Positions 11,554-38,815 of a stretch of 64,000 nt of DNA are shown here, in pieces (positions within the stretch are counted from its first letter, which is position 1; the number at the start of each line of letters is the position of its first letter). The notes below the pieces were generated by a model that was given only the letters and a program-made list of their open reading frames with translations, searched no databases and was not told the origin of the DNA. Position numbers and translations under genes: made by a program. Source of the DNA: Actinomycetota bacterium (GTDB taxonomy: Bacteria; Actinomycetota; Coriobacteriia; Anaerosomatales; Anaerosomataceae); the NCBI GenBank assembly GCA_009668945.1, contig SBEH01000001.1, positions 305,776 to 369,775 on the forward strand, read 5' to 3'.

Positions 11554-12435
11554 ATGAGCAGCCTCGATCCCGAGCTCCTTCGCTTCCACGAACAGCTTGC
11601 CCGCGAAATCCGCGAGGATCTGTCGGGTGTGGAGGAGTTCGAGCGGGCCGCCGAGCTGCATCCGTACTTCAAGGGGTACTACGCCAACTGGTCTGGCGAC
11701 GGCCTTCGTCCTAGACGCACCCGGAACGGCGCGCTGGCGCGCCGGCGACAGGTACCCGCCTTCGTCGCGCGGCTATCCGCCGAAGACGGCGAACTCCCAA
11801 CGGTGCTGGACGTCGGCTGCGGCTTCGGATCTGACTCGCTCCTACTGTCCCTACTGGGCTGCAAGGTCACCGGTGTCGACGGCAGCGAGGCGATGGCGAA
11901 AGTGGCGGCACACCGCCACGAGATGTGGCGCCCTTTCCTGGGGGAGGGGGTCCCTCGGGCAACGTTCTTGTTCGGCCGGCTCGAGGACCTGGACGCGCTT
12001 GTACCCGGCAGCTTCGACGGAGCGTTCACGTCCGAGTGCCTGCACCACTGCGAGCCGGTGGAGAACGCGCTTCTGGCGATCAGGAGCCTGGTCCGGGACG
12101 GCGCCCGGGTGCTCGTGCTCGAGAGCAACGGCAGGTGTCTCGCGAACACGGTGATGCTGAAGCGTCTGCGCCAGCAGGGTGGCAAGCGGCGGGTGCTCGG
12201 CATTGTCGACGGGCGATACCGGCTCTACGGCAACGAGAACATCCGGGGGCCACGCATGTGGAGGCGCCTGTTCCGCGATTGCGGATTCCGCGTGAACCGG
12301 ACGACCTACTCACGACACCTGGTGAGCGAGCTGATCGGCGGGTCCCCACGGCTGGATGCGATCCTGTGCCGGATGCCTGGCGCATCCTTTCTGACCATCC
12401 ACGTGGCGTTCGATCTCGTACCGGAGGCCTCCTAG
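11554..12435 (+). CDS. class I SAM-dependent methyltransferase
   Basis: 293 residues. Methyltransferase motif I is VLDVGCGFGSDSLLLSLLG (about 88-106), followed by the acidic loop VTGVDGSEAM and, further on, FDGAFTSECLHHCEPVENAL as the post-motif II region, the standard order of Methyltransf_11/25 folds. The C-terminal third (RMWRRLFRDCGF and following) is typical of methyltransferases in surface-glycan clusters, so a sugar O- or N-methylation is plausible; the substrate is not deducible. ATG 11554 follows GGAGAAGAG at 3 nt. It runs convergently into the wecB gene, the stops lying side by side. Confidence 0.8.
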   Translation: MSSLDPELLRFHEQLAREIREDLSGVEEFERAAELHPYFKGYYANWSGDGLRPRRTRNGALARRRQVPAFVARLSAEDGELPTVLDVGCGFGSDSLLLSLLGCKVTGVDGSEAMAKVAAHRHEMWRPFLGEGVPRATFLFGRLEDLDALVPGSFDGAFTSECLHHCEPVENALLAIRSLVRDGARVLVLESNGRCLANTVMLKRLRQQGGKRRVLGIVDGRYRLYGNENIRGPRMWRRLFRDCGFRVNRTTYSRHLVSELIGGSPRLDAILCRMPGASFLTIHVAFDLVPEAS

Positions 12436-13493
12436 CCCAGCCGCCCTACTGCCTCCGCGACCTTCTCCGCAGCATGCCCGTCACCGTAGACCTCGGGCCG
12501 TTCGGCCGGTCGAGACACCGCTGCCACCGCCTCGCGAATGCGCCCAGGCTCCGTTCCTGCCAGCCGGTTCCAGCCCATCTCGACCGTCTCGACCCACTCG
12601 GTCTCGTCGCGCAGCGTGACGCACGGCACGCCGAAGAAGTACGCCTCCTTCTGCATGCCGCCCGAGTCGGTGAGAAGCGCCTCGGCGCCGCGCAGAAGGG
12701 CGATCATCTCGCCGTACGGTTGTGGCTCGATCGCGCGCACGTTCCCGCCCATGCGTCCCTCTAGCCCAAACTCGTGCAGATTGCCCGCGGTTCGAGGGTG
12801 CACGGGCCACAAGACCGGCCTGTCGAGCGAGCCGAATGCCTCGACCACATTCCCGAGGCGGACGGGGTCGTCGCTTGTCGCCGCGCGATGCACGGTTGCG
12901 AGATAGTAGCCGCCCTCGTGAAGTCCGTGTGCCGAGAGCACCTCGCCAACATCCGTACGCTCAGCGAACTCCCGCGCCGTGTCGAGCATGACATCGCCGA
13001 CGAGCACGGCCCGCGAAGCCAACCCCTCTGCCGTGAGGTTCCCGATCGCCGCTGTCGTGGGGGCAAGCAGCAACGCGGACATGTGATCCACCACAACCCG
13101 GTTGATCTCCTCGGGCATGGAGCGGTTGAAGGAGCGCAGGCCCGCCTCCACGTGCGCCACCGGGATGTTCAGCTTCGCAGCGGCGAGTCCTCCGGCGAGC
13201 GTGGTGTTGGTGTCGCCATAAACGAGCACTGCGTCGGGCTCGATCTGTTGCAGCAGCTCTTCGAGCGCGGCAAGCATCTCGCCCGTCTGCCTGCCGTGAC
13301 CGCCGGAGCCGATGCCTAGATTGTGGTCGGGCGCCGGGATGCCGAGTTCATCGAAGAACACCTGCGACATACCGTGGTCGTAGTGCTGGCCCGTGTGGAT
13401 CAGCACCTCGTCATGCTCCGCCCGCAGCGCCCGGCAGACCGGGGCCGCCTTGATGAACTGGGGACGGGCACCGACTATCGAGGCGATCTTCAC
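12432..13493 (-). CDS. wecB: non-hydrolysing UDP-N-acetylglucosamine 2-epimerase family (WecB/WbpI type)
   Basis: 353 residues, GT-B-like fold. Conserved blocks: VGARPQFIKAAP at 7-18, HTGQHYD, YGDTNTTLAGGLAA, HVEAGLRSFNRSMPEEINR (catalytic Asp/Glu/His region) and LLTDSGGMQKEAYF near 285-298. WecB interconverts UDP-GlcNAc and UDP-ManNAc. Because it follows WbpB-, WbpD- and WbpE-like genes, the likely substrate here is UDP-GlcNAc(3NAc)A, giving the manno isomer as WbpI does. The GTG at 13493 was chosen because it lies 2 nt after the upstream aminotransferase stop; the frame upstream overlaps that gene. Confidence 0.88.
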   Translation of the reverse strand: MKIASIVGARPQFIKAAPVCRALRAEHDEVLIHTGQHYDHGMSQVFFDELGIPAPDHNLGIGSGGHGRQTGEMLAALEELLQQIEPDAVLVYGDTNTTLAGGLAAAKLNIPVAHVEAGLRSFNRSMPEEINRVVVDHMSALLLAPTTAAIGNLTAEGLASRAVLVGDVMLDTAREFAERTDVGEVLSAHGLHEGGYYLATVHRAATSDDPVRLGNVVEAFGSLDRPVLWPVHPRTAGNLHEFGLEGRMGGNVRAIEPQPYGEMIALLRGAEALLTDSGGMQKEAYFFGVPCVTLRDETEWVETVEMGWNRLAGTEPGRIREAVAAVSRPAERPEVYGDGHAAEKVAEAVGRLG

Positions 13494-13495
13494 GG

Positions 13496-14596
13496 CTACG
13501 ACAGCGCCTCTCGAAGCACGCGTGCGACCTCCTCCTGCTGTTCCCGCGTGATTCCCGGGAAGCACGGGATCGCAAAGGTCTCGGATTCTGCCGCTTCGGC
13601 CTCCGGCAGACTCCCCAGCGCATAGCCGAGGTCCGCGTAGACCTCCTGCAGGTGCAGCGAGCGCGGGTAGTAGATGGCGGTGCCGATACCCGCTGCCTTG
13701 AGCGCCTCCATCACGCGAGGCGCCTCGGGGGTTCGCACGATGTACAGGTGGTAGACGGGCTCTCCGTACGCCCGGCGCACCGGAACGGTGAGCGGCAAGT
13801 CGGCCAGCAGTTCGTCGTAGACTGCGGCAGCGGTCCGACGCTCCTCGTTCCAGCGGTCGAGGTGCGGCAGCTTGACCGACAGGATCGCAGCCTGAAGCGC
13901 ATCCAGCCGGCTGTTGTGGCCGAGTGCGTCGTGGAAGTACTTCTTCGCTGTACCGTGGTTGCCGAGCTTGCGCGCTCGCGCTGCCAGATCGGCATCGTCA
14001 GTGGTTAGGATGCCGCCGTCCCCGGCGCCGCCCAAGTTCTTGGACGGGAAGAAGGAGAACGCCGCCGCGTCTCCCAGCGCGCCGGCGCGCTTGTCCCGAT
14101 ACGTCGCGCCGATCGCCTGGCATGCGTCCTCGATGACCTTGAGTCCGTGCTTGCGCGCAATCGCGTTGATCGCATCCATGTCCGCGCACTGGCCAAAGAT
14201 GTGGACCGGCATGATCGCCTTGGTCCGTTCGGTGATAGCCGCTTCGACGAGCGTCGCATCGATGTTGTAGGTATCGCGCTCGATGTCCGCGAACACCGGA
14301 GTCGCTCCGACCTGGCTGATCGACTCGGCGGTGGCGAAGAACGTGAATGGCGAGGTGATGACCTCATCGCCCTCCCCGATTCCCATCGCTTCGAGGATGA
14401 GGATGAGCGCGTCGGTACCGTTCCCGCAGCCAACCGCGTGCGAGGTGCCGCAATACGCCGCAATGGCCTCTTCGAGCGCCTTGACCTTCGGCCCGCCGAT
14501 GAACCCGGCGGTCGACATCACGTCGTGCATCGCGGCGTCGATCTCGGACTGCAGCTCGCGATACTGTGCGGGCAGGTCGAGAAGCGGTACTCCCAT
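13496..14596 (-). CDS. wbpE: DegT/DnrJ/EryC1 family aminotransferase, WbpE-like
   Basis: PLP-dependent sugar aminotransferase, 366 residues. GNGTDALILILEA (58-70) binds PLP phosphate, IEDACQAIGA (155-164) stacks the ring, and SFFPSKNLGGAGDGG carries the Schiff-base Lys186. Close in motif to WbpE/WlbC, which transfers an amino group from glutamate to the 3-keto carbon of UDP-GlcNAc-uronate. The neighbours support that role: a Gfo/Idh oxidase (15379) that would make the 3-keto sugar and a left-handed beta-helix acetyltransferase (14634) that would acetylate the new amine. The next gene, wecB, starts 2 nt after the stop. Confidence 0.87.
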   Translation of the reverse strand: MGVPLLDLPAQYRELQSEIDAAMHDVMSTAGFIGGPKVKALEEAIAAYCGTSHAVGCGNGTDALILILEAMGIGEGDEVITSPFTFFATAESISQVGATPVFADIERDTYNIDATLVEAAITERTKAIMPVHIFGQCADMDAINAIARKHGLKVIEDACQAIGATYRDKRAGALGDAAAFSFFPSKNLGGAGDGGILTTDDADLAARARKLGNHGTAKKYFHDALGHNSRLDALQAAILSVKLPHLDRWNEERRTAAAVYDELLADLPLTVPVRRAYGEPVYHLYIVRTPEAPRVMEALKAAGIGTAIYYPRSLHLQEVYADLGYALGSLPEAEAAESETFAIPCFPGITREQQEEVARVLREALS

Positions 14597-14633
14597 TCGT
14601 GGCTCTCCTTGCGTGTCGTGCGCCCGGTGGGCG

Positions 14634-15377
14634 CTACTGGTTCTCGAGAAGTTCGTCGTCCGGTACGGTACGCACCACCTTCGCGGGCGAGCCCATCACG
14701 AGCGTGCGGGCTGGCACGTCACGCGTGACAACCGAAGCGGTGGCCACGAACGCTTCCTCCCCGATCTCGATGCCGGGCAAGATGTGCGCGCCGCCACCAA
14801 CACGTGCGCCGCGACGGATGGTGCAGCCCCGCATCAGCTTCAGGCGCTTCTCCGTCCGCCCCATGAAGTTGTCGTTCGTGGTGACTACCATCGGGGCGAC
14901 GAACACGTCTTCCTCGATCGTCACGTACGCGGTGATGTAGGCGCCGGTCTGGATCTTCGTGCGGGAGCCGACGGTGGTGTCGTTCTCCACCGTGACGTTG
15001 CGGCCGATCACGACGTTGTTCCCCAGTCGGCAGCGCTCACGGATACCCGCGCCATCGGCCACAACGCATAGCTCGCCGATCGCCGTGCCGGCCATCAGCA
15101 CCGTGTGGCTGCCAATCGAAGTGCCGATCCCGACGCTCAAGGGCTCCAGCGCGCCTCGCGACGCTGTGGACGTTGATGCCAGCTTCGGCGCCCTGCCGAC
15201 AACGGCGAAGTCGCCCACGCTCACCCGCGCGGCCAGGCGCGTCCCCGCGTGCACGGTCACGTGGTTGCCGATCGTCACGTCGTTCCCGAGCACCACGTCA
15301 TCCTCGATGACGGCGCATTCGCCAATCGCAACGCCCTCACCGATTCGCGCAGTGGTCGCAATCTTGGGCTCGCACAT
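14634..15377 (-). CDS. wbpD: left-handed beta-helix N-acetyltransferase, WbpD-like
   Basis: 247 residues made largely of hexapeptide repeats ([I/V]GxxxV type: VAIGECAVIEDDVVLGNDV, ADGAGIRERCRLGNNVVIG, and on), giving a trimeric acyl-CoA transferase. WbpD/WlbB acetylates the 3-amino group of UDP-GlcNAc3NA to give UDP-GlcNAc(3NAc)A. The C-terminus (VTRDVPARTLVMGSPAKVVRTV) is the usual capping helix. It is longer than many WbpD proteins, with extra N-terminal coils. The start ATG 15377 lies 2 nt after the upstream oxidoreductase stop; the two are translationally close and clearly one operon. Confidence 0.85.
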   Translation of the reverse strand: MCEPKIATTARIGEGVAIGECAVIEDDVVLGNDVTIGNHVTVHAGTRLAARVSVGDFAVVGRAPKLASTSTASRGALEPLSVGIGTSIGSHTVLMAGTAIGELCVVADGAGIRERCRLGNNVVIGRNVTVENDTTVGSRTKIQTGAYITAYVTIEEDVFVAPMVVTTNDNFMGRTEKRLKLMRGCTIRRGARVGGGAHILPGIEIGEEAFVATASVVTRDVPARTLVMGSPAKVVRTVPDDELLENQ

Positions 15378-15378
15378 C

Positions 15379-16398
15379 TCACGCCTCCAGCGAGATGTCG
15401 ACGGGGGCGCCGCCCGCGCGCATGGACGCGTCGACCGCCTCGAGGACCTGCACGACGCGAAGACCGTCGAGTCCGTCCGAGCGCGGCGTCGCTCCGGTCT
15501 GGCAGCACTCGACGAAGTGCTTCATCTCGACGAGCAGCGGCTCCTTGGCCGGAATGTGCGGCACGCGTATATCACCGAACCGCAGCATGAGGTCCTCGCC
15601 GTAGGCGAGCGCATCGGCCGGTGCCACGCCCTTGTCGTAGATCCAGACCTTGTCCGTGGCCTCCATGTCGTCGAAGACAGCCATCTTCTTCGAGCCAACG
15701 AGGGTGATGCGGCGCGTCTTGTGCGGATCGAGCCACGACACGTGGATGTTGGCGGTCTTGCCCGACGGGAAGTGCAGGTTCGCGAAGACCACGTCCTGCA
15801 CGTCTTCGTGCAGGTAGCTCGCGCCATTGGCCGAGACGCGGTCCGGCGCTTCGCCGAGCAGGAACAGCACCATCGACACATCGTGGGGTGCGAGCGACCA
15901 GAACGCATTCTCGGCGGTCCGCACCTTCCCGAGATTCAATCGCTGCGCGTAAACGTAAAGGATCTCGCCGAGCTCCCCTGAGGCGACAAGATCACGCAGG
16001 TACTCGATCGAGGCGTGGTACTCCATGAGGTGGCCGACCATCAGTGTGAGATTGCGCTGGGCAGCGAGACGGAGCAGCTCGCGCGCATCCGCCGAGGTCA
16101 GTGTGAGCGGCTTCTCGACGAAGCAGTGCTTGCCCGCCTCCAGCGCCTGACGAGCCAGGGAGTGGTGCAGCGGCGCCGGTGCCGCGATCACGACGGCATC
16201 GATGTCGTGCTCCCCGAGCATCGTGTCGAGTGAATCCACAATCGCCGCGCTGGGGTGGGCCGTTGCCGCCTTCGCGCGGTTGGCCTCACTCGCGTCGCAG
16301 ATCGCGACTAGTTCGGCGTCGGGCACGCGCGAGACGCTGCGGACAACGTTGGGGCCCCAGTAGCCGTAGCCGATGGCCCCGATTCGCACTGCATTCAC
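15379..16398 (-). CDS. wbpB: Gfo/Idh/MocA oxidoreductase, WbpB/WlbA-like
   Basis: NAD(P)-binding sugar oxidoreductase, 339 residues. Rossmann motif IGAIGYGYWGPNVVRS at 6-21, and EKPLTLTSADARELL with the catalytic Lys near residue 98. The WbpB/WlbA clade oxidises C3 of UDP-GlcNAc-uronic acid, the step before the WbpE aminotransferase found two genes downstream. UDP-GlcNAc 6-dehydrogenase (WbpA), needed for the uronate, is not in this window. The GTG at 16398 was chosen: it follows GGGAGGAG at 5 nt and starts at the Rossmann fold, whereas the ATG at 16485 adds 29 residues with no family match. Confidence 0.86.
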   Translation of the reverse strand: MNAVRIGAIGYGYWGPNVVRSVSRVPDAELVAICDASEANRAKAATAHPSAAIVDSLDTMLGEHDIDAVVIAAPAPLHHSLARQALEAGKHCFVEKPLTLTSADARELLRLAAQRNLTLMVGHLMEYHASIEYLRDLVASGELGEILYVYAQRLNLGKVRTAENAFWSLAPHDVSMVLFLLGEAPDRVSANGASYLHEDVQDVVFANLHFPSGKTANIHVSWLDPHKTRRITLVGSKKMAVFDDMEATDKVWIYDKGVAPADALAYGEDLMLRFGDIRVPHIPAKEPLLVEMKHFVECCQTGATPRSDGLDGLRVVQVLEAVDASMRAGGAPVDISLEA

Positions 16399-16499
16399 GC
16401 GGGCTCCTCCCGTAGTCGGTGGTCGCACGCCACACTCCCCCGCAAGTCCCGCTCCCGGTATGCCGGTCGCTGCACATGCGAACACTCGGACACACTACA

Positions 16500-17774: not shown

Positions 17775-19070
17775 GTGAACATCCTTGTTGTCTACTTCAA
17801 TCGACACCACCCCATTCGCGCCAGCGCAGAGGACCATCTCTACTGCTTCCAGCGGGCATCTGAGCATCGATGCTACTACCTGAACGCGGCGCTCCCCTGG
17901 GTCCCGGCCTTCGTGAAGCGTTCACACTTCGACCTGGTGGTATTCCACAACATCTTCCTCTGGTGGCGCTACGAGCCGAAGCTCTTCCGACGCCTCTGTG
18001 ATCGCGTGAAGTGGACCGCTGACCTGTCGTGTCCGAAGGCCATGCTTCCGCAGGACGAGCACTTGCAGGGCGACATTCTTGAGGAGTTCATCGAGCGGTT
18101 CCGAGTCACCCACGTGCTCTCATGCGCCGACTCTACCCAATGGCCACTCCTGTATCCGAGCACCGACCGCGAGCGCGTGCTCTTCTCGACGGTGCTGCCG
18201 GGGTACCTGTCGACTCGAACACTCGAGCGGATCTCTAGAATCGGCGCCCAAGACATCGCTCGCGACCTCAACATCGGCTACCGCGCGGTGCGCCTCGGAC
18301 CCAGCCTGGGAAGCCACGCGCTTCTGAAGGTCACAATTGGAGAGGAGATTGCGCGACGAGCGGCGGACCTTGGCCTGGCTACCGACATTTCCAGCAACAT
18401 CTACGACACCTTCCTCGGGGACAAGTGGTTCGAGTTCCTTCTTCGCTGCAAGTACACGGTCGGCGTCGAGGGCGGTGCGAGTGTCCGGGACGCTGACGGA
18501 AGCGTCCTCGAGGCTGCAACGGAGTACATGAAGCTGCACCCGCGAGCGGACTTCGAGGAAGTTGAGGCAGCTGTCTTCCCCGGCCGGGACGGCGAAATCG
18601 CGTATCACGCCATCTCTCCACGCCATCTGGAGTGCTGCGCTACGAGAACGTGCCAGATTCTCGTCGAAGGCGAGTACAGCGGAATCCTCACGCCGAATGT
18701 CCACTACATCCCACTCAAGCGGGACCTGAGCAACCTGGACGAAGTGCTACAGGCAGTTGTGCGCGACGACCTGCGAACCTCTCTCGCGGAGCAAGCGTTC
18801 AAGGACATCGTCGCCAGCGAGCGATACACGTACGAGTCCTTCGTGAAGACGGTCATAGCGCGCGTCTTCAGCAACGGTGCGCCTGGACCTCACACCCAGA
18901 CCGGAACCGACAGGATCGGCTACTCCGAGGCCCGATTCTACGATTGGCTGCTGTGGGCATTTTGGGCCACGGCTTGGGCCATTCGCCGGCCAATCGAGCG
19001 AGCGTTCGGCCGAGAACGAGTGCGCGGCTGGGTCAACGCGGTTCGGCGGCGCCGCGGGGAGATTCAGTAG
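17775..19070 (+). CDS. uncharacterised glycosyltransferase-like protein, paralogue A of three
   Basis: 431 residues; function unproved. It shares a colinear set of blocks with the proteins at 19073 and 22326: an N-terminal ILVVY strand, VVFHNIFLW, PQDEH, a GYRA...GSHALLK block, WFEFLLRCKYTVGVEGGAS, then DFEEVEAAVFPG, ISPRHLE and TRTCQILVEGEYSGIL-HYIPL near the C-terminus. The last part recalls the CgeB/GT-B class (a residue-rich C-terminal half binding a nucleotide sugar), hence the tentative call. It has a C-terminal basic, amphipathic tail (RRPIERAFGRERVRGW). GTG 17775 aligns with the starts of both paralogues; the frame further upstream is antisense to the GT4 gene. Confidence 0.6.
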   Translation: MNILVVYFNRHHPIRASAEDHLYCFQRASEHRCYYLNAALPWVPAFVKRSHFDLVVFHNIFLWWRYEPKLFRRLCDRVKWTADLSCPKAMLPQDEHLQGDILEEFIERFRVTHVLSCADSTQWPLLYPSTDRERVLFSTVLPGYLSTRTLERISRIGAQDIARDLNIGYRAVRLGPSLGSHALLKVTIGEEIARRAADLGLATDISSNIYDTFLGDKWFEFLLRCKYTVGVEGGASVRDADGSVLEAATEYMKLHPRADFEEVEAAVFPGRDGEIAYHAISPRHLECCATRTCQILVEGEYSGILTPNVHYIPLKRDLSNLDEVLQAVVRDDLRTSLAEQAFKDIVASERYTYESFVKTVIARVFSNGAPGPHTQTGTDRIGYSEARFYDWLLWAFWATAWAIRRPIERAFGRERVRGWVNAVRRRRGEIQ

Positions 19071-19072
19071 AC

Positions 19073-20326
19073 ATGGCGCGCATCCTTGTCGTCCACGAGT
19101 CCTCCGCGCTGCGCCTCCATGCCACGATCGAAGACCACCTCGCGAGCTTCCGCGATCATGCGGTCGGGCACGACGTGGAGTACCTCAACGCGGCACTCCA
19201 CATCCCTCGCTCGATCCGCCGCGCCAAGTACGCACTGATCGTCTTCCACTACACGTTCCTGGCACGCCGAGTCTCACCGCGCTATTTCAACTGGCTGTGC
19301 GACCGCGTTTCGTTCCTCCGCGACAGCGCCGCAACGAAGGTGATCGTTCCGCAGGACGAGCAGAACCGCGGCGACTTGCTATGTCGCTTCATCAACGACT
19401 TCGGCGTCTCGCACGTCTTCTCGTGTGCGGGTCCCATCGATTGGCCGCGCATCTACCGCGAGATAGACGCACACCAAGTGGGGTTCGACACCGTTCTCAC
19501 CGGCTACGTCTCCGAGCGGACCGATGCCCGCATCCAGCGCATGGCGGACGACATTCGCGAACGGTCGATTGCGATCGGCTACCGCGCGCGTGACCTCCTC
19601 CCCTGCCTTGGACGACACGCACGCCTCAAGGGCGACCTGGGTAGAGCGTTCCTGGCCGAGGCGCCGCGACATGGGGTGACCGTCGACATCTCGCTGGATC
19701 CTACCGACCGCATCGATGGCGATGCCTGGTTCGCGTTTCTGCTGCGCTGTCGATACACGATCGGGGTCGAGGGTGGTGCGAGCATTCTCGACTACGACGG
19801 CTCGCTCGAGGCTGCGACGCGCGAGTACATGCAGGCCGACCCGGGAGCGAGCTTCGAGGAGATTGAAGCCGCTTGCTTCCCCGGCGCCGAAGGTTCGCTG
19901 GAGCTCAGGGCGATATCGCCGCGACACCTTGAGGCGTGTATGACTCGCACCTGCCAGGTACTGGTGGACGGCGAGTACGGTAGCGTGCTGCGGCCCCACG
20001 AGCACTACATCCCGCTCAGAGCCGACATGAGCAACATGGCGGACGTCCTGGACACCATCGCCCGTGATGACCTTCGCGAGGCGATGGTGGAACGCGCATA
20101 TCGTGATGTTGTCGAATCGGGCGAATGGTCGTACCAGCGGTTCGTGAACCTGGTCCTCGATCGTGCAGGGCTGCAGCTGCAGACAGAAGCGCCTGCCGAC
20201 ACCCGACCGATCCGTCGCCTGCTCGACTACCCGCAGCTCGCTCTGCGTGCTGTTCTTCACGGCACGCTCGACCGCCTGCTAAAGAAGCGCTGGTTCGCCA
20301 GACTGTACGCCCGCGTGCGCGGCTAG
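19073..20326 (+). CDS. uncharacterised glycosyltransferase-like protein, paralogue B of three
   Basis: 417 residues, 2 nt after paralogue A. Starts MARILVVHESSALRLH, then IVFHYTFLARR, IVPQDEQNRGD, IGYRARDLLPCLGRHARLK, WFAFLLRCRYTIGVEGGAS, FEEIEAACFPGAEG, ISPRHLEACMTRTCQVLV and EHYIPLRADMSN. The invariant GVEGG(A/T)S-x3-D-(G)S and PRH(L/F)E-x3-TRTCQ blocks are shared by all three copies and are likely catalytic or binding sites. The central EAATREYMQADPGASFEEIEAA stretch is acidic and helical. No membrane segment is seen. Its direct position ahead of asnB and the surface-sugar genes places it in glycan assembly, but no donor is assigned. Confidence 0.6.
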   Translation: MARILVVHESSALRLHATIEDHLASFRDHAVGHDVEYLNAALHIPRSIRRAKYALIVFHYTFLARRVSPRYFNWLCDRVSFLRDSAATKVIVPQDEQNRGDLLCRFINDFGVSHVFSCAGPIDWPRIYREIDAHQVGFDTVLTGYVSERTDARIQRMADDIRERSIAIGYRARDLLPCLGRHARLKGDLGRAFLAEAPRHGVTVDISLDPTDRIDGDAWFAFLLRCRYTIGVEGGASILDYDGSLEAATREYMQADPGASFEEIEAACFPGAEGSLELRAISPRHLEACMTRTCQVLVDGEYGSVLRPHEHYIPLRADMSNMADVLDTIARDDLREAMVERAYRDVVESGEWSYQRFVNLVLDRAGLQLQTEAPADTRPIRRLLDYPQLALRAVLHGTLDRLLKKRWFARLYARVRG

Positions 20327-20348
20327 CCGCCCCTGCCAAGCGTTCGTC

Positions 20349-20354
20349 TATACT
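20349..20354 (+). promoter_or_regulatory. -10 box ahead of asnB copy 1
   Basis: TATACT, 49 nt before the asnB ATG, in the 76-nt gap after paralogue B. No matching -35 is seen at 16-19 nt spacing. It may be an internal promoter of the plus-strand operon. Confidence 0.35.
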
Positions 20355-20402
20355 TGCCGCTGATACCGCAAGACCTCTCGGAAGCCGTGGTGTAGCTGCA
20401 CG

Positions 20403-22316
20403 ATGTGTGGAATCGCCGGACTCATCAGCCTGAACGACCGCCCCGTGGGCAATCCCGAGCGGCGTCTTGCGGTCATGTCCGACCTCATCCGTCACCGCGG
20501 GCCCGATGGTGAGGGTGTCTGGATCCACGAGGGCAACCGCCTCGGATTCGCACACACTCGGCTTGCGATCATCGACCTCACCACCGGCGATCAGCCGATG
20601 ACCGACGGCAGGGGCAACTGGGTCGTCTATAACGGCGAGATCTACAACTACCGCGAACTGCGCACCGAGCTCGGCGTCGAACGCTTTCGGACAGCTTCCG
20701 ACACAGAGGTGATCCTCGAGGCGTACCGCACGTGGGGCGACGACTGCGTGTCGCATCTACGCGGCATGTTCGCGTTCGCTCTCTGGGATGCGGAACGCTC
20801 TCGGCTCTTCTGTGCGCGAGATCGTTTCGGTATCAAGCCCTTCTACTACGCAGTGGCTGACGGCGTGTTCTACTTTGCGTCGGAAATCAAAGCGCTGCTC
20901 CCGTTCCTCCCGTCGATAGAGACGGACCGGGATGCCTTCAAGGACTACCTGGCCTTCCAGCTCTGCCTCGACGGCAAGACTCTCTTCGAGGGAGTTCGCG
21001 AACTCCTGCCCGGCCACGCCATCGAGATTCGCGGCTGCGACGTGCGTGTGTGGCGCTACTGGGAGATCTACTTCAACCTCGACTGGGACCACACGGACGA
21101 CTACTTCGAACACGAGGTGCGTTCCCGCCTAGAGGAATCGGTTCGGATACACACACGCGCTGACGTTCCGATTGGCGCCTACGTGAGCGGCGGCATCGAC
21201 TCAAGTGCGGTGGCTTCCATCGCTTCGAGTGCCGGCGACGACGAGTTCATCGGGTTCACTGGCACGTTCGCAGAGGGACCGCAGTACGACGAGAGCGAGT
21301 ACGCCCGCATGGTAGCGGAGACTGCAGGATTCCCGCTGCACTCGGTGGAGATCACATCGCAGGACTTCATCGACAACATCCGCAAGGTGATCTACCACCT
21401 GGACTTCCCCGTGGCAGGCCCGGGTTCGTTCCCGCAGTACATGGTGTCGCAGCTGGCCGCGAAGCATCGCAAGGTGGTGCTCGGCGGGCAGGGCGGGGAT
21501 GAGATCTTCGGGGGGTACGCGAGATACCTGGCCGCCTACTTCGAGCAGTGCATCAAGGCAGCCATCGACGGCACGATGGACAACGGGAACTTCGTGGTCA
21601 CGTACGAGTCAATCATCCCGAACCTCACTACGCTGCGTGCCTACAAGCCGATGCTCCAGGATTTCTGGCATGAAGGCCTGTTCGGGCCAATGGACGAGCG
21701 CTACTTCCGCCTGATCAACCGAACGCACACGCTGGAGGGCGAAGTGCGCTGGGAGGCGCTGGGCGACTACTCACCGTTTGAGACGTTCAAATCGATCTTC
21801 AACGCTCCAAACGTTGGACACGAGTCGTACTTCGACATGATGAGCCACTTCGATTTCAAGACCCTGCTGCCGGCGCTACTGCAGGTCGAGGACCGTGTGA
21901 GCATGGCCCACGGTCTCGAGTCGAGAGTGCCGATCCTGGATCACACGATCGTCGAGTTGGCTGCCACTATTCCCGCGAACATCAAGTTCGAGGGCGGAAC
22001 ACTCAAGCGGGTGCTGCGCCACGCGGTGCAACCGTTCATCCCGGCTGCGATAGCGGCCCGCAAGGACAAGATGGGGTTCCCTACGCCGCTCGTGGAGTGG
22101 GTCAAGGGCGAAGCTCGAGACTTCGTCCACGACGTCTTCTCGTCCCAGGCTGCCCTGAGCCGCGAGCTGGTCGACAACAGCGTCGTCTTGCGCGGAGTCG
22201 GGGCTGAGACGGCGTTCGGGCGCAAAGCCTGGGGCCTGCTCTGCCTGGAGCTCTGGCAGCAGGAGTTCCACGACAAGGCGGCGAGCTACCGCGCATTAGG
22301 CGCAGGTTGCGGCTAG
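20403..22316 (+). CDS. asnB: asparagine synthase (glutamine-hydrolysing) family protein, copy 1
   Basis: 637 residues, two domains. The N-terminal class II glutaminase has catalytic Cys2 (MCGIAGLI), RHRGPDGEG at 30-38, RLAIIDL, YNGEIYNYREL and ASDTEVILEAY. The synthetase domain has the PPi loop SGGIDSS at 262-268, and later GGQGGDEIFGGYARY. True AsnB makes asparagine, but homologues in O-antigen clusters (e.g. WbpS-like) amidate sugar uronic acids. With a second copy at 30704 and a diacetamido-uronate pathway nearby, amidation of a glycan uronate is a reasonable inference. Paralogue C begins 10 nt after the stop. Confidence 0.88.
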   Translation: MCGIAGLISLNDRPVGNPERRLAVMSDLIRHRGPDGEGVWIHEGNRLGFAHTRLAIIDLTTGDQPMTDGRGNWVVYNGEIYNYRELRTELGVERFRTASDTEVILEAYRTWGDDCVSHLRGMFAFALWDAERSRLFCARDRFGIKPFYYAVADGVFYFASEIKALLPFLPSIETDRDAFKDYLAFQLCLDGKTLFEGVRELLPGHAIEIRGCDVRVWRYWEIYFNLDWDHTDDYFEHEVRSRLEESVRIHTRADVPIGAYVSGGIDSSAVASIASSAGDDEFIGFTGTFAEGPQYDESEYARMVAETAGFPLHSVEITSQDFIDNIRKVIYHLDFPVAGPGSFPQYMVSQLAAKHRKVVLGGQGGDEIFGGYARYLAAYFEQCIKAAIDGTMDNGNFVVTYESIIPNLTTLRAYKPMLQDFWHEGLFGPMDERYFRLINRTHTLEGEVRWEALGDYSPFETFKSIFNAPNVGHESYFDMMSHFDFKTLLPALLQVEDRVSMAHGLESRVPILDHTIVELAATIPANIKFEGGTLKRVLRHAVQPFIPAAIAARKDKMGFPTPLVEWVKGEARDFVHDVFSSQAALSRELVDNSVVLRGVGAETAFGRKAWGLLCLELWQQEFHDKAASYRALGAGCG

Positions 22317-22325
22317 GCACAGCAC

Positions 22326-23660
22326 GTGGCGCGCATCCTGGTCGTCTATCATCAAGCGCCATTCATGCCGATGCGAGCCACGGTACGCAGCCACCTACAG
22401 AGCATCGAATCGTACTCGGGTCATGAGTGCGTCTACCTGAACACGGCACGACCGCGGGCACCACGGTACCTGCGTCGATTCGACCCTGACGTCGTGTTCT
22501 TCCACTACACCTTCCTCAGCATGCGATCGGCGCCGGAGGTGTTTGAACTCGCGAAGGCGGTCGTCGACTACCTAAGGGAGAGTCCCGCGCGCAAGGTCGC
22601 CGTCCCGCAGGATGAACAGACGCGCAGCGATCTGCTGTGTGAGTTCATCAACAGCTTCGGCGTGGACGTGGTGCTCACCCCCGCTCCGGCCGAGGCCTGG
22701 CCGATGATCTACGAGGGAACCGATCGCAGCAGACTCACCCTTCGCACCGTCTTGACCGGCTACGTTGATGAATCGGCCGTGCGGCGTACTGCGAAGCTTG
22801 CCCGGCGCCATCATGAGCGCCCGATCGACATAGGGTACCGCTCCTGGGACCCATATCCGTTTTACGGACGTCACGGACGGCTGAAAGGCGAGATTGGGTA
22901 TTTGTTCAGGCGGCGAGCGCCGGAGTATGGACTGCGCACCAACATCTCGAACGACTATGCCGACGCACTCTTCGGCGACGATTGGTTCAACTTCCTTCTC
23001 GACTGCAAGTACACAATCGGTGTTGAAGGCGGCACGAGCATGATCGATAGGGACGGAAGCATCGCCAGACGCACCTTGGCCTATCTGGACGAGCATCCAG
23101 ATGCCAACTTCGAGGAGGTTGAGGCAGCATGCTTCCCCGGCATCGATGGCACGTTCCCGTACTACGCACTCTCGCCTCGGCACTTCGAGGCTGTGATGAC
23201 AAGAACCTGTCAGATTCTTGTCGAGGGTCACTATGGAGGGGTACTCGAAGCCGGAAGACACTACATTCCGCTGAGGCGCGACCTGCGCAACCTGGACGAG
23301 GTGCTGACGATCGTCCGCCAGGACAACGTACGAGCCGAGCTTGTCGATGCGGCGTACGAGGACGTCGTAGCCTCCGGCGCGTGGACGTATCGACGCTTCG
23401 CGGATGAGGCGCTTGCTGCAGCACGGGTCGAACCGTTGGCCCACAGAGGCCGTGGGGCAACACGCCTCTGGAATCGGATTGACGAGGCGTTCCTGGCTCC
23501 CACGGTGGCGCTGGGTTCTCTCGTCCGCACCACCCGCGAAGGCGGCCCCCAAGCCACATGGGAGAAGACCAGACTCGTGGCCCGAAGCCGCCTCAGACGG
23601 CACGTGGTCTCATTGCGCCGACGCCTAGGCCGATCGCCCGGATGTTGGAGGAGCGACTAG
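22326..23660 (+). CDS. uncharacterised glycosyltransferase-like protein, paralogue C of three
   Basis: 444 residues from GTG 22326, 10 nt after asnB. It keeps the family blocks: ARILVVYHQ, VVFFHYTFLSMRS, VAVPQDEQTRSDLLCEFINSFG, IGYRSWDPYPFYGRHGRLK, WFNFLLDCKYTIGVEGGTS, NFEEVEAACFPGIDG, LSPRHFEAVMTRTCQILV and RHYIPLRRDLRNLDEVL. Differences from A and B are spread through the chain, so the duplications are old rather than recent. The C-terminal 60 residues are Arg-rich and hydrophobic-poor, ending near the start of the methyltransferase, whose ATG follows the stop without a gap. Confidence 0.6.
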   Translation: MARILVVYHQAPFMPMRATVRSHLQSIESYSGHECVYLNTARPRAPRYLRRFDPDVVFFHYTFLSMRSAPEVFELAKAVVDYLRESPARKVAVPQDEQTRSDLLCEFINSFGVDVVLTPAPAEAWPMIYEGTDRSRLTLRTVLTGYVDESAVRRTAKLARRHHERPIDIGYRSWDPYPFYGRHGRLKGEIGYLFRRRAPEYGLRTNISNDYADALFGDDWFNFLLDCKYTIGVEGGTSMIDRDGSIARRTLAYLDEHPDANFEEVEAACFPGIDGTFPYYALSPRHFEAVMTRTCQILVEGHYGGVLEAGRHYIPLRRDLRNLDEVLTIVRQDNVRAELVDAAYEDVVASGAWTYRRFADEALAAARVEPLAHRGRGATRLWNRIDEAFLAPTVALGSLVRTTREGGPQATWEKTRLVARSRLRRHVVSLRRRLGRSPGCWRSD

Positions 23661-24677
23661 ATGCACTTGAGATCACGTGCGTTCAGGATGATCCGCGCCG
23701 GGATTCGTCTCCTGGTTGCTCGCGTGAACCGAAGTCTCACTAGACTCCACGAAATCGTGACACTCGGCCCTCTGACTCACATTGCCGTAGAAGATGCCCG
23801 CCCCCGGAATCTCGCGCAGAACGACGTGGAACGATACTGGTCATCACATGTCGTGAATGATGAGCGGTTCGAGACCGCTCGCGCTTCCACCGAGTACCTA
23901 GCATGGCGATTCGAGCAGTATCCCTTGTTCCGTGAGTTCATGGACCTATGGGGCGAGCACGACGGTCACGTCATTCTGGACTATGGCTGCGGCCCCGGCG
24001 ACGACACCACCGGATTCCTCCTGAACACCAACGCTCTGCAGGTAGTCTCATGTGATGTAGGTCCACAGGCCCTCGAGCTGACGCGGAGCCGCCTGGCTCG
24101 CCACCGAATCGACCCCGCCCGTTCGAGGCTGCTCCTGGTCAGCGATCGGGATCCTCGAATCCCGTTGGGCAGCGGCGGGGTGGACCACGTCAACTGCGGC
24201 GGTGTGCTTCACCATACCTCGTACCCCGATGTGCTCCTTCAGGAGTTTCACCGGATCCTGAAGACTGGCGGCACGGCCAACGTCATGGTCTACGGCTACA
24301 ACAGTGTCTACATTCACCTCTTCATCGCCTATCACCTTCAGGCTTGCGAGGGGCGCTCCCCCGGAATGGAACTCCGCAAGGCTTTCGAGGCCTACGCGGA
24401 CGGCGAGGGCTGTCCAATCGCCGCATGCTATCTGCCAGACGAGTTCGCTCAGCTGTGCACCGACGCGGGATTCGAGACAGCGTTCATGGGGGGATATCTG
24501 TCGCAATCGGAGTTGCGATGGCTCAAGAACGACCTCGAGGCCGCCCTGGCGGATTCTCGCCTTCCGGAAGACAGCAGGAGGTTCCTTGGCGGCCTGCAGT
24601 ACGACGATCTGGGGCTCCCGACATACGAAGGAAGGCATGCGGGTCTGAGCTACGTCTACCGACTGATGAAGCACTAG
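23661..24677 (+). CDS. class I SAM-dependent methyltransferase (glycan cluster)
   Basis: 338 residues. An N-terminal basic helix precedes the SAM fold: ILDYGCGPGDDTTGFLL near 108-124, SCDVGPQALELTRSRL as motif II region, then GGVDHVNCGGVLHHTSYPDVL and EFHRILKTGGTANVMVYGYN. The last third (DEFAQLCTDAGFETAFMGG) and a C-terminal YVYRLMKH are common in sugar or lipid methyltransferases of polysaccharide loci. The acceptor is unknown. It starts at the very next base after paralogue C's stop, so it is translated from the same message, and it is followed by a 75-nt gap with a promoter. Confidence 0.8.
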   Translation: MHLRSRAFRMIRAGIRLLVARVNRSLTRLHEIVTLGPLTHIAVEDARPRNLAQNDVERYWSSHVVNDERFETARASTEYLAWRFEQYPLFREFMDLWGEHDGHVILDYGCGPGDDTTGFLLNTNALQVVSCDVGPQALELTRSRLARHRIDPARSRLLLVSDRDPRIPLGSGGVDHVNCGGVLHHTSYPDVLLQEFHRILKTGGTANVMVYGYNSVYIHLFIAYHLQACEGRSPGMELRKAFEAYADGEGCPIAACYLPDEFAQLCTDAGFETAFMGGYLSQSELRWLKNDLEAALADSRLPEDSRRFLGGLQYDDLGLPTYEGRHAGLSYVYRLMKH

Positions 24678-24688
24678 TCTCGGCTTGT

Positions 24689-24717: not shown

Positions 24718-24752
24718 AGTACCCAACCCCGTGGCCCCAGGAGGTCATCGCA

Positions 24753-26734: not shown

Positions 26735-26735
26735 G

Positions 26736-27708: not shown

Positions 27709-28902
27709 TCACCGTGGCAAGCCGAGCAGATCGCTGTAGATCCGGTCCATGCGCTGCGCTCCCGCCTGCGAGGAGTGCCACTTGAGCGCGAACTCTCTGC
27801 TGCGTCGCCCGATGTCCGCGCGCTTGTCTGGGTCCGCGATTAGTTCCGCAAGGACTTCGTGTACCGTTTCTGGAGTCGCGCTCACGACCGGCAGCTCCTC
27901 CGCGTACTCTGGAAGCTGCTCCCTTACCTGCGCCAGCCACTCAGGCCGGATGTAGCACACGAACGGCTTCCCCAGCATCATGGCTTCTCGCCCATTCGCT
28001 CCGAACCAGCCAAACGTGAGCATGTCTGCAACGATGTCCGCCTGCAGCTGGTAGTAGCGCATCTGCCTGCTGGGCACGTCAGAGAAGAACACGAGTTCCG
28101 TGTCGAAACCCTCGTCCTTCATCCGTTGCATGAGCGGCACGTAGATATGCGTGGACTTGATGTTACGTCGGTCTTCACCGTGCGTGCGCGCGCTGTAGTT
28201 GCCCACGGAGTGGTAGACCTTGACGGTCTCTGCGGGAACGGCGAGCCGGTAGTTGGAGGGGATCAGAACCCCCGGATCCCAATGGTCCGGATCCATGCAG
28301 TAGAACTCCGGCACCTCATGCACCCGCGGATCGCTATTGAAGTCCACGCGGTTACCGCCCGTGGTGCACTGGTAGTCCGCGAGTTCGTTCCTGATTCGGC
28401 CCCATTCGGCGTTCCGCTCATCACTGCATACCGTGGGGTCGTTCTTCCAACGGCAGACGTCGCATACGGGCTCTTCGCCCCATCCGGAGAAGCCACTCTG
28501 GGTCGCCCCGTCGAGGCAACCGTTGTTGGAGTACACGATCTTCTTGCCCCTCGACTTCAGCCAGCGCACCCCCTCGGTGGGATCGTCACCCCGGCTGAAC
28601 GGCACCGTCATGCCCCACGCGTTCGAGAAGTGGACAACGTCGTAGTTGGCATCCACCCATCGGAGGAACCGCCTGAACCGAACGAGTCCGCTGGGGTTCC
28701 GTGTACGGAATCGGGTCTCCGTGAAGTCCTCCCCGTGGTAGAAGGACTGAGACTGAGGATTGGCGTCGGTATTGAGTACGTCCGCCCTCCAACCGAGCTT
28801 CCGCAATTCGCGGCTCAGATACCACGTGTGATAGAAGGAGTGGCCGCAGAAGAGAACCCGACCCTTGCCGGTGATGGGATCGGGAGTCTTCGGGAACATC
28901 AT
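27709..28902 (-). CDS. putative glycosyltransferase with Cys-rich insert
   Basis: 397 residues; no standard signature set is complete. The C-terminal half resembles a GT-B donor domain (VADMLTFGWFGANGREAMMLGKP, then an Asp/Arg-rich end FALKWHSSQAGAQRM). Unusual is a central insert near 140-170 with CDVCRWKNDPTVCSD, three cysteines in a short span, which could bind a metal. N-terminal GRVLFCGHSFYHTWYLSREL is Rossmann-like. Two adjacent ATG codons (28902, 28899) are possible starts, both with only a weak ribosome site (GGAGACG). It lies between the WbqC-like gene and SDR member 3. Confidence 0.55.
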   Translation of the reverse strand: MMFPKTPDPITGKGRVLFCGHSFYHTWYLSRELRKLGWRADVLNTDANPQSQSFYHGEDFTETRFRTRNPSGLVRFRRFLRWVDANYDVVHFSNAWGMTVPFSRGDDPTEGVRWLKSRGKKIVYSNNGCLDGATQSGFSGWGEEPVCDVCRWKNDPTVCSDERNAEWGRIRNELADYQCTTGGNRVDFNSDPRVHEVPEFYCMDPDHWDPGVLIPSNYRLAVPAETVKVYHSVGNYSARTHGEDRRNIKSTHIYVPLMQRMKDEGFDTELVFFSDVPSRQMRYYQLQADIVADMLTFGWFGANGREAMMLGKPFVCYIRPEWLAQVREQLPEYAEELPVVSATPETVHEVLAELIADPDKRADIGRRSREFALKWHSSQAGAQRMDRIYSDLLGLPR

Positions 28903-28948
28903 GTCGGTGTCGCGTCTCCGTCCCTGGCCTTCGGTCGCCGCGTCGAGT

Positions 28949-29677
28949 CTATCCGACAGAACGAGCACTTGTCTCCAGCAGCCTCGCCGTGCCCTCGAAG
29001 CCGCAGTTTGCCAGCGCATCCACTACAGAGAGACCCGGGGCGAACTCGGGTGCGCGGTACTGCGAATACACCGGATGCTCGAGCCGCTGGTAGACAAGAT
29101 CGATGCCGGCATCGGTGAACTTCGCGTCTTCCTGATACCCCTCAGCACCACCGCCGGCCAGGTACGAGTCGCCGCCCGCGGACTTCACCATGGAGATCAG
29201 GAGGTCGGTCGCTGAGGCTTCAAGGTCGTCGAGCTCGCTCCCGCGCATGATCTCTGTTCTTCCTAGACCCAGGCAACTGCGAAGGCTCTCGATGGCGGCG
29301 ATGTTGTAGTCGGCCAGCGAGTCGTCAGGATTCATCACCAGTTCATTCAGGATACCTGCGACGTCGTCGAAACAGGAGGCCTTGCCGTAGCTGACCTCGA
29401 TTGTCTTCCAGACCTTCTCGCGCCAGTTCGATGAGCCGTCAAGCCGGATATCACTGATGGCAAGCGTGCCGTGATATGAGCGATCCACCGGGGCCGTCAC
29501 CCATCTCGGCTCGCCGCCAACCATCATCTTCACGCGATTCGTCCAACACCCGCCGGTCTTCTGGAACTGGGCGTTGTCCATCAGGATGAAGACATCGGCA
29601 CGGGCAATCTTGTCGAAGAAGCCAAGCCAAGGGAAGAAGTTCGGCTGGTGTATGGCGACGAGGCGGTTACGAGACAT
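28949..29677 (-). CDS. WbqC-like family protein
   Basis: 242 residues. The WbqC family signature HQPNFFPWLGFFDKI at 9-23 is present, followed by FQKTGGCWTNRVKM, then the later conserved YLAGGGAEGYQEDAKFTDAGI. The family is repeatedly found in O-antigen and capsule loci near amino-sugar and aminotransferase genes; its reaction is not established to my knowledge. Overlaps the stop of the upstream formyltransferase by 11 nt. Together with the formyltransferase and AsnB-like gene, it suggests acyl or amide decoration of a sugar. Confidence 0.78.
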   Translation of the reverse strand: MSRNRLVAIHQPNFFPWLGFFDKIARADVFILMDNAQFQKTGGCWTNRVKMMVGGEPRWVTAPVDRSYHGTLAISDIRLDGSSNWREKVWKTIEVSYGKASCFDDVAGILNELVMNPDDSLADYNIAAIESLRSCLGLGRTEIMRGSELDDLEASATDLLISMVKSAGGDSYLAGGGAEGYQEDAKFTDAGIDLVYQRLEHPVYSQYRAPEFAPGLSVVDALANCGFEGTARLLETSARSVG

Positions 29678-33367: not shown

Positions 33368-34299
33368 CTTCGAACCTCGTCTGCCGCACGGGGCCGCGAC
33401 CGCACGAAGACGTTGCCGTCTCCGCAGTCTGCGATCTCGTCGATCACCAAGTCGGCCCCAGAAAGGAGGTTCTCGGCCATCGGAATGTCGAGATGGAAGG
33501 CGTGGAACTGATCCATGGCACCCTCAGGGCGCTCCAGGTGCTTGAGGTACTTGGCTGAGCGGCCAGCGATGCCGATGCCCAGTCGTTCACGCGCGACGGC
33601 CCCGAGTAGCCGGAACTCACCGTTGACCAACATGCGAAGCGCAGTGTGGAGCTGCCTCCCGACACCACTGCGCTCCGCCGGTGCACAGTCGGCCTCCTCA
33701 TCGCAATGGGGCACCAGCCCGAACCAGAGGTTCACGGAGCCGGACGGCTTCGTGACGCGCCGGGCTTCTCTGAGAACCATCCCCGGTGACATGACATGGT
33801 CCAGGGACGTCGCAAACAGCACTCTGTCGAACGTCGCATCCCGGAAGGGCAGGTACTCTCCTATCGCCATGGCGAACAGGAAGTCACGCCTTGCAGAGCC
33901 GACGAGCGGGTCGATCCCGACCAGCGTGCCGGCGAAGTCTGAGCCGTAACTCGGCAGCCGTTGAGGACCACACCCGACGTCCAGAACCATGCCCTCAAGC
34001 TTGCAGAACCCCGCGAACGCCCTGGCATCAGCACGTCGGCCAATCGAGAGATTCGCCTTCGGCGCACGCGCATACGAGACCTCACCGTTCTCCTGCAATC
34101 GCTCCCAGAGGCGCCACTTCTCCGCCAGCTCCTGGTCGGGGGCCGGATTCAGTATGAGATCGGGGTGACCGGTTCGAACTGGGTAGTTGCGCCTGCAGGC
34201 CGCACATTCAACAGATGAAGCAGCTGTCCTCAACTCACCGTGACACACCGGGCAAACCAGCAGGGACATCAGGTCCGTCTCTGTGCTCGCTTGGTTCAC
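33364..34299 (-). CDS. zinc-ribbon (Trm112-like) + SAM-methyltransferase fusion protein
   Basis: 311 residues from GTG 34299, or 301 from ATG 34269. Residues 10-50 form a Trm112-type zinc ribbon: CPVC then CAAC with YPVRTGHPDLI. A class I methyltransferase follows: VLDVGCGPQRLPSYG near 104-118, VGIDPLVG, DRVLFATSLDHVMSPG and REARRVTKPSGSVNLWFGLVP. Such ribbon-methyltransferases are common first genes of glycan loci. It is first in the minus-strand operon to 26736 and divergent from the ABC exporter at 34468. Confidence 0.7.
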   Translation of the reverse strand: MNQASTETDLMSLLVCPVCHGELRTAASSVECAACRRNYPVRTGHPDLILNPAPDQELAEKWRLWERLQENGEVSYARAPKANLSIGRRADARAFAGFCKLEGMVLDVGCGPQRLPSYGSDFAGTLVGIDPLVGSARRDFLFAMAIGEYLPFRDATFDRVLFATSLDHVMSPGMVLREARRVTKPSGSVNLWFGLVPHCDEEADCAPAERSGVGRQLHTALRMLVNGEFRLLGAVARERLGIGIAGRSAKYLKHLERPEGAMDQFHAFHLDIPMAENLLSGADLVIDEIADCGDGNVFVRSRPRAADEVRR

Positions 34300-34424
34300 T
34301 GTCTATCGCCCGCGCTCATCACACATGGTCTCCTCGGCCTCGGCGGCGGTTTGCAGCCCATTATCGCGCTACTCTCGCCTCCGCGGAACGTAAGCCCGGC
34401 GCGGTACCACTTCTTCCGCATAAC

Positions 34425-34441
34425 ACGTAGATTGTCTACGT
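34425..34441. promoter_or_regulatory. inverted repeat before the ABC transporter gene
   Basis: ACGTAG-ATTGT-CTACGT, a perfect 6-bp-arm repeat with a 5-nt spacer, lies 26 nt before the GTG at 34468 and within the divergent 168-bp region. It could be an operator for one or both operons. A GGAGG ribosome site (34459-34463) follows it. Confidence 0.4.
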
Positions 34442-34467
34442 ACACCGACTCGCGCGACGGAGGTCAT

Positions 34468-36297: not shown

Positions 36298-36301
36298 GCA
36301 C

Positions 36302-38116: not shown

Positions 38117-38117
38117 C

Positions 38118-38720
38118 ATGCGCGTCATCGTGATAGGTGCGGGTGGGCACGCCAAAGTGGTCATCGATGCGATCGAGCGCAGCGGCGACGAGGTTGTCGC
38201 CGTGATCGACGAGACCGCGCGCACGAAGTCCCTGCTCGGCTACGAGGTATCGACACGCGTTCCCTCCGATGCCGATGGCTTCGTCATCGCCATCGGCGAC
38301 AATGCGATGCGCATGGCGCGCTTCGAGCACTATCTCGCGACGGGCCTGCGGGCGGTCCCGGTGGTGCACCCGTCGGCGATCGTCGCCGACGACGTGCATC
38401 TGGGCGATGGCACCGTGGTCTTCGCGGGCGTGATCGTGAACCGCGGCACAACGGTCGGCGAGAACGTCATCCTCAACACCGGCTGCAGGATCGACCACGA
38501 CTGCCGGATCGGCGATCACGCGCATATCGCACCGGGCGTGAGCCTGTCCGGAGGCGTCGCTGTGAGCGAAGGCGCGCTCGTGGGCGTCGGCGCGTGCGCC
38601 ATCCCGGGCACCAGCATCGGCTCCTGGGCGACCGTCGGTGCCGGAGCCGCAGTGGTCGACCCCGTTCCGGACGGTGTCACGGCCGTGGGCGCTCCGGCCC
38701 GGGAGCGGCACGCCACCTAG
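38118..38720 (+). CDS. pglD: PglD-type sugar acetyltransferase (NeuD family)
   Basis: 200 residues. An N-terminal Rossmann-like region (VIVIGAGGHAKVVIDAI at 3-19) precedes a left-handed beta helix built from VIVNRGTTVGENVILNTGC, RIGDHAHIAPG, VSEGALVGVGACAIPGT and SIGSWATVGAG repeats. PglD acetylates the 4-amino group of UDP-sugars to give UDP-di-N-acetyl-bacillosamine. The aminotransferase (39393) and dehydratase (40610) of that pathway follow on the same strand, and the priming fusion precedes it by 1 nt. The catalytic His is in the CRIDHDCRIGDH block. Confidence 0.88.
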   Translation: MRVIVIGAGGHAKVVIDAIERSGDEVVAVIDETARTKSLLGYEVSTRVPSDADGFVIAIGDNAMRMARFEHYLATGLRAVPVVHPSAIVADDVHLGDGTVVFAGVIVNRGTTVGENVILNTGCRIDHDCRIGDHAHIAPGVSLSGGVAVSEGALVGVGACAIPGTSIGSWATVGAGAAVVDPVPDGVTAVGAPARERHAT

Positions 38721-38733
38721 CCATGCAATCGCG

Positions 38734-38804
38734 CCACCAAGTGGTTGCGTTTCCACCACCAAGTGGCGCATTATCCATGTATGTAGATTCATTGTAGATA
38801 CATG
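38734..38804 (+). promoter_or_regulatory. mazEF promoter and operator repeats
   Basis: AT-rich relative to the flanks. Two identical copies of CCACCAAGTGG (38734-38744, 38756-38766), each with CCAC/GTGG arms, are 22 bp apart, about two turns. A -35-like TTGCGT (38745-38750) and -10-like CATTAT (38769-38774) are 18 bp apart. Further downstream is a perfect inverted repeat CATGTAT-15 nt-ATACATG (38776-38804), ending just before the GAGGAG ribosome site. This is typical of an autoregulated toxin-antitoxin operator and unlike anything else in the local operon. Confidence 0.55.
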
Positions 38805-38815
38805 AGGAGTCAGCG

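Follow-up and report, generated by a model that had tools for sequence, protein, structure and literature searches.

What is made by three related tandem genes that surround an AsnB-type amidotransferase gene in a bacterial glycan locus, and to which enzymes are their products related? The genes lie in a stretch of 64,000 nucleotides (hereafter, the window) from an Actinomycetota bacterium (GenBank assembly GCA_009668945.1, contig SBEH01000001.1, positions 305,776 to 369,775). Their products, P1, P2 and P3, were described from the letters of the window (the original prediction) as paralogues of an uncharacterised glycosyltransferase-like family. They are members of a real, rare family of bacterial GT-B glycosyltransferases that has no entry in Pfam, NCBIfam or PHROGs; the sequence family is new, the fold is not. 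Judged by profile and model comparisons, their donor domain is distantly related to GT90, the family of the human Notch glucosyltransferases (POGLUT), CAP10, and the bacterial XpApiT. Together with AsnB1, the gene between P2 and P3, they belong to a gene module that is conserved in a glycan locus. The features of the module are the following (window positions).

17775..19070, + strand: P1, first family member, GT-B glycosyltransferase-like, 431 amino acids, GTG start
19073..20326, + strand: P2, second family member, 417 amino acids
20403..22316, + strand: AsnB1, intact gene, glutamine-dependent amidotransferase, WbpS-like
22326..23660, + strand: P3, third family member, 444 amino acids, GTG start; modelled with AlphaFold2
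22608..22616, + strand: P3 QDE motif (residues 95-97), putative catalytic-base region of the N-terminal domain (N-domain)
22809..23441, + strand: P3 C-terminal (donor) domain (C-domain; residues 162-372), nearest solved structures GT90 POGLUT1/POGLUT2
23019..23039, + strand: P3 GVEGGTS loop (residues 232-238), opposite the sugar-binding segment of GT90 in the alignment; role suggested by POGLUT1
23058..23171, + strand: P3 family-specific segment (residues 245-282), containing FEEVEAACFPG, unaligned to GT90

The genes form a tight operon, with spacings of 2 bases between P1 and P2, 76 between P2 and AsnB1, and 9 between AsnB1 and P3.

Sequence family and conserved motifs

The three proteins were colinear from the N-terminal ILVV to approximately residue 365 in a MAFFT alignment, and the second and third copies were 46% and 42% identical to the first. 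The blocks GVEGG(A/T)S-x2-D-x-DGS, FEE(V/I)EAA-x-FPG, SPRH(L/F)E-x3-TRTCQ, and HYIPL were present in all of them, so both the tandem arrangement around AsnB and the shared blocks of the original prediction were recovered; PQDE(H/Q) and GYR...G...K were additional conserved motifs. Chance similarity was excluded because each copy matched the family profile at E <1e-160 (all three were included in the profile). Independent relatives matched P1-P3 at E 1e-51 to 1e-95 (tblastn).

No model of Pfam, NCBIfam, or PHROGs was reached at threshold by P1, P2, or P3, and the part of the literature on GT90 and GT-B families that was covered held no description of this family. The statement that the blocks match no recognised signature thus holds for curated families, but the family has relatives, and structure and profile alike place its C-domain nearest to GT90. 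A weak match to VpsR (E 0.025) was judged to be due to chance, and Rab14 and SLC37A4, obtained in a single-sequence PDB search, were discarded as noise.

Twenty family domains were compared. The Asp of the QDE motif was invariant (20/20), as were R165, Y171, R172, G181, W220, G232, G236, D241, P284, E288, H312, and D319 (P3 numbering), and position 285 was R in 18 domains and K in 2. Only the outer two glycines of the GVEGG loop were invariant, and its middle varied (GVEGG, GSESG, GANSG). Between this loop and the SPRHxEA helix, segment 245-282 had 37-39 residues in all but one of the 20 full-length relatives, the exception having 42; since its length is nearly constant, the segment of approximately 38 residues is considered a family trait.

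Predicted fold and relationship to GT90

The P3 model (predicted local distance difference test score, pLDDT, 85.2; predicted TM-score 0.82) had two Rossmann-like domains with a cleft, as in GT-B enzymes, and the full-length model matched many such enzymes in Foldseek (best E 4e-7, probability 1.00). The GT-B glycosyltransferase proposed originally is therefore supported at the level of a predicted structure. Residues 162-372 were also modelled alone to avoid effects of domain arrangement (pLDDT 86.7). The three best solved matches of this isolated C-domain were POGLUT1, POGLUT1, and POGLUT2 (probability 1.00, E 2.6e-3 to 4.7e-3), and Drosophila Rumi was seventh.

Sequence profiles gave the same relative. 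POGLUT1 was the only significant solved-structure match of the family profile (E 7e-5, restricted to the HYIPL block). In profile-profile comparisons with 12 bacterial GT90 proteins and 11 CgeB-like proteins of PF13524, the family matched the GT90 alignment with 95.5% probability (E 1.6e-8) and the CgeB-like alignment with 21.6%. When segment 246-279 of P3 was removed, the GT90 match covered the whole C-domain (columns 163-314; 95.5-96.3% probability across the GT90 comparisons), and the KYTIGVEGG strand-loop aligned with RYQFVVSVEG of GT90. The C-domain is thus GT90-like both in predicted fold and in the order of the donor loop. The CgeB-like match also rose upon removal, up to 93% in one setting, and GT90 and CgeB-like proteins are therefore placed in one wider assemblage in which GT90 is consistently nearer.

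P1-P3 themselves reached neither the PF05686 (GT90) cut-off nor that of PF13524 (25 bits), and a PF05686 search of the family's own genomes gave weak matches only, all inside family members. Relatives in three genomes (G570, G573, and G648) passed PF13524 at 25.2, 28.3, and 25.1 bits, i.e., by 0.1-3 bits, and the P3 model matched YkvP/CgeB-like proteins in the viral library; the CgeB/GT-B flavour noted earlier for the C-terminus is real to this extent. The EX7E motif of GT4 was absent in P3, in which residue 280, eight before E288, is Tyr.

Candidate donor site and catalysis

In POGLUT1, sugar hydroxyls are bound by backbone atoms of the turn at 272-276, the phosphates are held by Arg218 and Arg279, and the role of base falls to Asp133 (PMC5543122). 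In POGLUT2 there are three arginines of this kind, together with Asp238 (PMC13084666). A nucleotide sugar, probably linked to uridine diphosphate (UDP), would by the conserved residues and the GT90 alignment be bound in the C-domain of P1-P3. According to the alignment, R172, K187, and R285 may hold the diphosphate, with R285 as the counterpart of Arg279 and R172/K187 on the Arg218 side. The GVEGG loop, aligned with the sugar-binding segment of GT90 (272-276 in POGLUT1), would form the sugar turn, and its proposal as a donor-site loop is plausible. The QDE Asp is the best candidate for a base in the N-domain, where it may activate the acceptor hydroxyl; the catalytic Asp of the POGLUT1 N-domain, to which it may correspond, is Asp133. 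Transfer would invert the anomeric centre, as in GT90. P1-P3 are most likely inverting glycosyltransferases, with inversion, donor, and linkage all inferred.

AsnB1 and the conserved gene module

AsnB1 carries the MCGIAG N-terminus (glutaminase Cys2) and the SGGIDSS loop of the ATP-pyrophosphatase domain. Besides the window, three Pseudomonadota loci had the order family member-AsnB1-family member: L034 (genome G648), L037 (G574), and L039 (G575); L038 (G573) had the AsnB1 orthologue and the downstream family member. The orthologues in these four genomes shared 54-57% identity with AsnB1 and 76-81% with one another, and other AsnB proteins in these loci were 29-39% identical to AsnB1 and its orthologues. 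Among 151 genomes of the Accumulibacter family, an AsnB of at least 55% identity was present only in G574 and G648, in both alongside the new family, and the remaining genomes had at most 40%. None of the 68 other genomes in the order of the window's genome had an AsnB1 match at E 1e-120 or better. Thus, among 220 sampled genomes, the AsnB1 orthologue is present only where the glycosyltransferase family is present.

A second, different AsnB was observed beside family members in Accumulibacter (L037:14064-16232 and L038:11691-13625; 83% identical to each other and approximately 33% to AsnB1).

Distribution and phylogeny

The contig scan gave six relatives, in records titled Gemmatimonadetes, Actinomycetota, Deltaproteobacteria, Accumulibacter (two), and Polaromonas, and further ones were found in whole-genome searches. 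The family is rare. With the genome at the centre of each search counted in, members were carried by one of 297 sampled genomes from the window's phylum, two of 300 from its class, and three of 151 from the family to which one Accumulibacter genome belongs. P1-P3 were the sole copies in their 1.92-Mb genome, as searched with the family profile. Relatives often occurred in several copies, sometimes fused to GT4 domains. Phage, plasmid, and viral-contig collections held no relatives at the sensitivity used, and an origin from phages or plasmids was dropped.

In a tree of 20 rows, P1, P2, and P3 did not form one clade. P1 was outside the P2/P3 branch, and P3 paired with a protein of G358, another genome of the same order (56% identity, support 98/96), which was nearer to it than P1 or P2. 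A recent triplication is ruled out by this tree, and the copies are therefore old or were separately acquired. The original prediction was correct as to the age of the divergence, which is not proof of three distinct linkages. One supported sub-branch comprised the window copies and the downstream Accumulibacter/Polaromonas copies; the other comprised the remaining Accumulibacter/Polaromonas copies and the fusions with GT4 domains on either side.

Three single frames in Accumulibacter (L038:6220-8901, L038:8540-11719, and L037:16271-18958) join the new family to GT4 domains placed before or after it, and such fusions are probably bifunctional transferases.

Surroundings of the locus

The other genes to which the interpretation refers are listed below (window positions).

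23661..24677, + strand: S-adenosylmethionine (SAM) methyltransferase, immediately 3' of P3, zero gap
12432..16485, - strand: Wbp-like nucleotide-sugar genes (WecB epimerase, pyridoxal phosphate-dependent aminotransferase, hexapeptide acetyltransferase, Gfo/Idh 3-dehydrogenase)
27709..29677, - strand: GT4-like glycosyltransferase (GT_27709) and WbqC-like protein, with counterparts in two Pseudomonadota loci
34240..42430, + strand: lipid-linked glycan assembly genes (MsbA/PglK-type ATP-binding cassette exporter, polyprenyl-phosphate sugar transferase fused to GT4, PglD-like acetyltransferase, aminotransferase, PglF-like dehydratase)

Methyltransferases were near family members in other genomes as well, and homologues of the Wbp-like genes were near them in L032 and L035. 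GT_27709 and the WbqC-like protein had counterparts with 55-56% and 46-48% identity in L038 and L039, which also hold the family and AsnB1, and AsnB2, the second AsnB of the window (30704-32590), had a 67% (partial) relative in L038 or L039; a larger part of the locus is therefore common to distant bacteria. UDP-sugar dehydrogenase genes were present in all seven genomes tested; G648, G597, and G571 have them in the region of the family, and G575 on the same contig as the family.

The guanine + cytosine (GC) content was approximately 0.62 at window positions 16000-36000 and approximately 0.67 on both sides, consistent with an acquired surface-glycan island. A Wzy_C protein of the O-antigen-ligase type with C-terminal tetratricopeptide repeats (9481-11472) could be a polymerase, a ligase, or a protein O-oligosaccharyltransferase. 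A 256-amino-acid protein without a Pfam match (32597-33367) was 35% identical to part of an open reading frame of the Polaromonas locus, also without a Pfam match (L039:13420-14835). A reading frame of 377 amino acids (7338-8471, - strand) without a Pfam or NCBIfam match may not be a gene.

Proposed role and alternative explanations

In P. gingivalis, the AsnB-type WbpS converts a uronic acid of the Wbp pathway to a uronamide, and the amide is lost on deletion (PMC7468200). Because of this precedent, the Wbp-type genes, and the lipid-carrier and exporter genes, AsnB1 is read as a maker of uronamide that is handled by the flanking transferases. AsnB1 would amidate a uronic-acid sugar from the Wbp-type pathway, the flanking glycosyltransferases would transfer the amidated sugar or extend from it, and the chain would grow in the cytoplasm on a polyprenyl carrier and then be exported. 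We consider it probable that P1-P3 are GT90-related GT-B glycosyltransferases that assemble a uronamide-containing lipid-linked glycan with AsnB1. Several points weigh against this. The activity, donor, and linkage of P1-P3 are predictions. The full-length P3 search was led by retaining GT4 enzymes (PimB', MshA, BshA), and the GT90 affinity was confined to the C-domain. The TM-scores were modest (0.43-0.49; 0.43-0.47 for the C-domain), as were the E-values of the C-domain matches, and the best relative in PF05686 had E 0.0025 and 17 bits against a cut-off of 24. AsnB1 scored 454 bits with the WbpS-type TIGR03108 (cut-off 816.9), the search of the window's genome gave a single UDP-sugar dehydrogenase gene, on a different contig, and members had no AsnB1 nearby in G358, G570-G572, and G597, several of them on short contigs.

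The lead of the GT4 enzymes in that search, the YkvP/CgeB-like viral matches, the three relatives that reach PF13524, and the 93% CgeB profile match after removal of the extra segment would all suit an extreme branch of the broad CgeB/GT4-like GT-B assemblage (PF13524/PF00534), possibly retaining, in which the likeness to GT90 is a convergence of the HYIPL-type C-terminal block. We regard this as unlikely, as GT90 was ahead in every profile comparison (95-96% vs 22-93%) and in the structure of the C-domain, and the EX7E motif is lacking. GT-B folds are also used by epimerases (WecB), and the family has no characterised homologue, so P1-P3 might be GT-B-like proteins with another role, such as an epimerase, phosphorylase, or scaffold. 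This is very improbable given the invariant polar residues at glycosyltransferase donor-site positions, the glycan-locus context, and the multi-copy occurrence typical of transferases; the GT4 fusions in Accumulibacter also support a glycosyltransferase role. A more serious, though still doubtful, alternative is that AsnB1 does not act on the sugar moved by P1-P3 and that the genes merely travel together in a mobile surface-polysaccharide island. The GC drop over 16-36 kb and the relatives of GT_27709, WbqC, and AsnB2 that also accompany the family in L038/L039 would fit this, but both the window and three Pseudomonadota genomes have AsnB1 directly between two members, in spite of rearrangement elsewhere in the locus. 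The GT90-related, uronamide-handling reading also has a stricter form, which seems rather improbable: a GT90-sister family dedicated to uronamide sugars, in which the two transferases and their private AsnB form a unit, amidation is coupled to transfer (e.g., on the lipid-linked chain or in a complex), and the segment of approximately 38 residues reads the amide.

P1-P3 and AsnB1 thus probably build an amidated surface sugar chain, the amide being predicted by analogy. The recurrence of the member-AsnB-member order across distant genomes is new here, as is the restriction of the AsnB1 orthologue, among the sampled genomes, to those with the family. As a genetic marker, this order points to probable uronamide-glycan loci in uncultured bacteria. 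Accumulibacter, whose extracellular glycans are important in wastewater granules, is one of these. Through this family, GT90, known best for its part in Notch glucosylation and the fungal capsule, gains a sister group in bacteria, from which the evolution of the GT90 donor site can be viewed.

Comparison with known systems

With GT90/PF05686 (POGLUT1, POGLUT2, Rumi, CAP10, XpApiT), the family has in common GT-B, the C-domain fold, and the (K/R)Y(T/F)...EG donor loop, after which come a helix with R/K and the L-x-P-x2-HYIPL-x2-D-x-S(N/D) block. It differs in that PF05686 is not passed, in the extra C-domain segment, and in an N-domain with QDE and GY motifs, which were not seen in the bacterial GT90 alignment (the N-domains are unaligned). 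PF13524 (Glyco_trans_1_2; CgeB/YkvP-like) shares the C-terminal helix-strand block, and a few members are just past its cut-off, but the window copies have no match and the profile comparison is much weaker than with GT90. The overall two-domain GT-B architecture is common to GT4 (PimB', MshA, BshA), from which the family differs by the missing EX7E motif and an identity of only 10-15%. AsnB1 resembles the uronamide-forming amidotransferases WbpS and WbqG in that it is a two-domain glutamine amidotransferase of the AsnB type, encoded in a locus that also has Wbp-type sugar genes (PMC7468200); it represents a separate subfamily, well under the TIGR03108 cut-off, which in the sampled genomes occurs only with the new glycosyltransferases.

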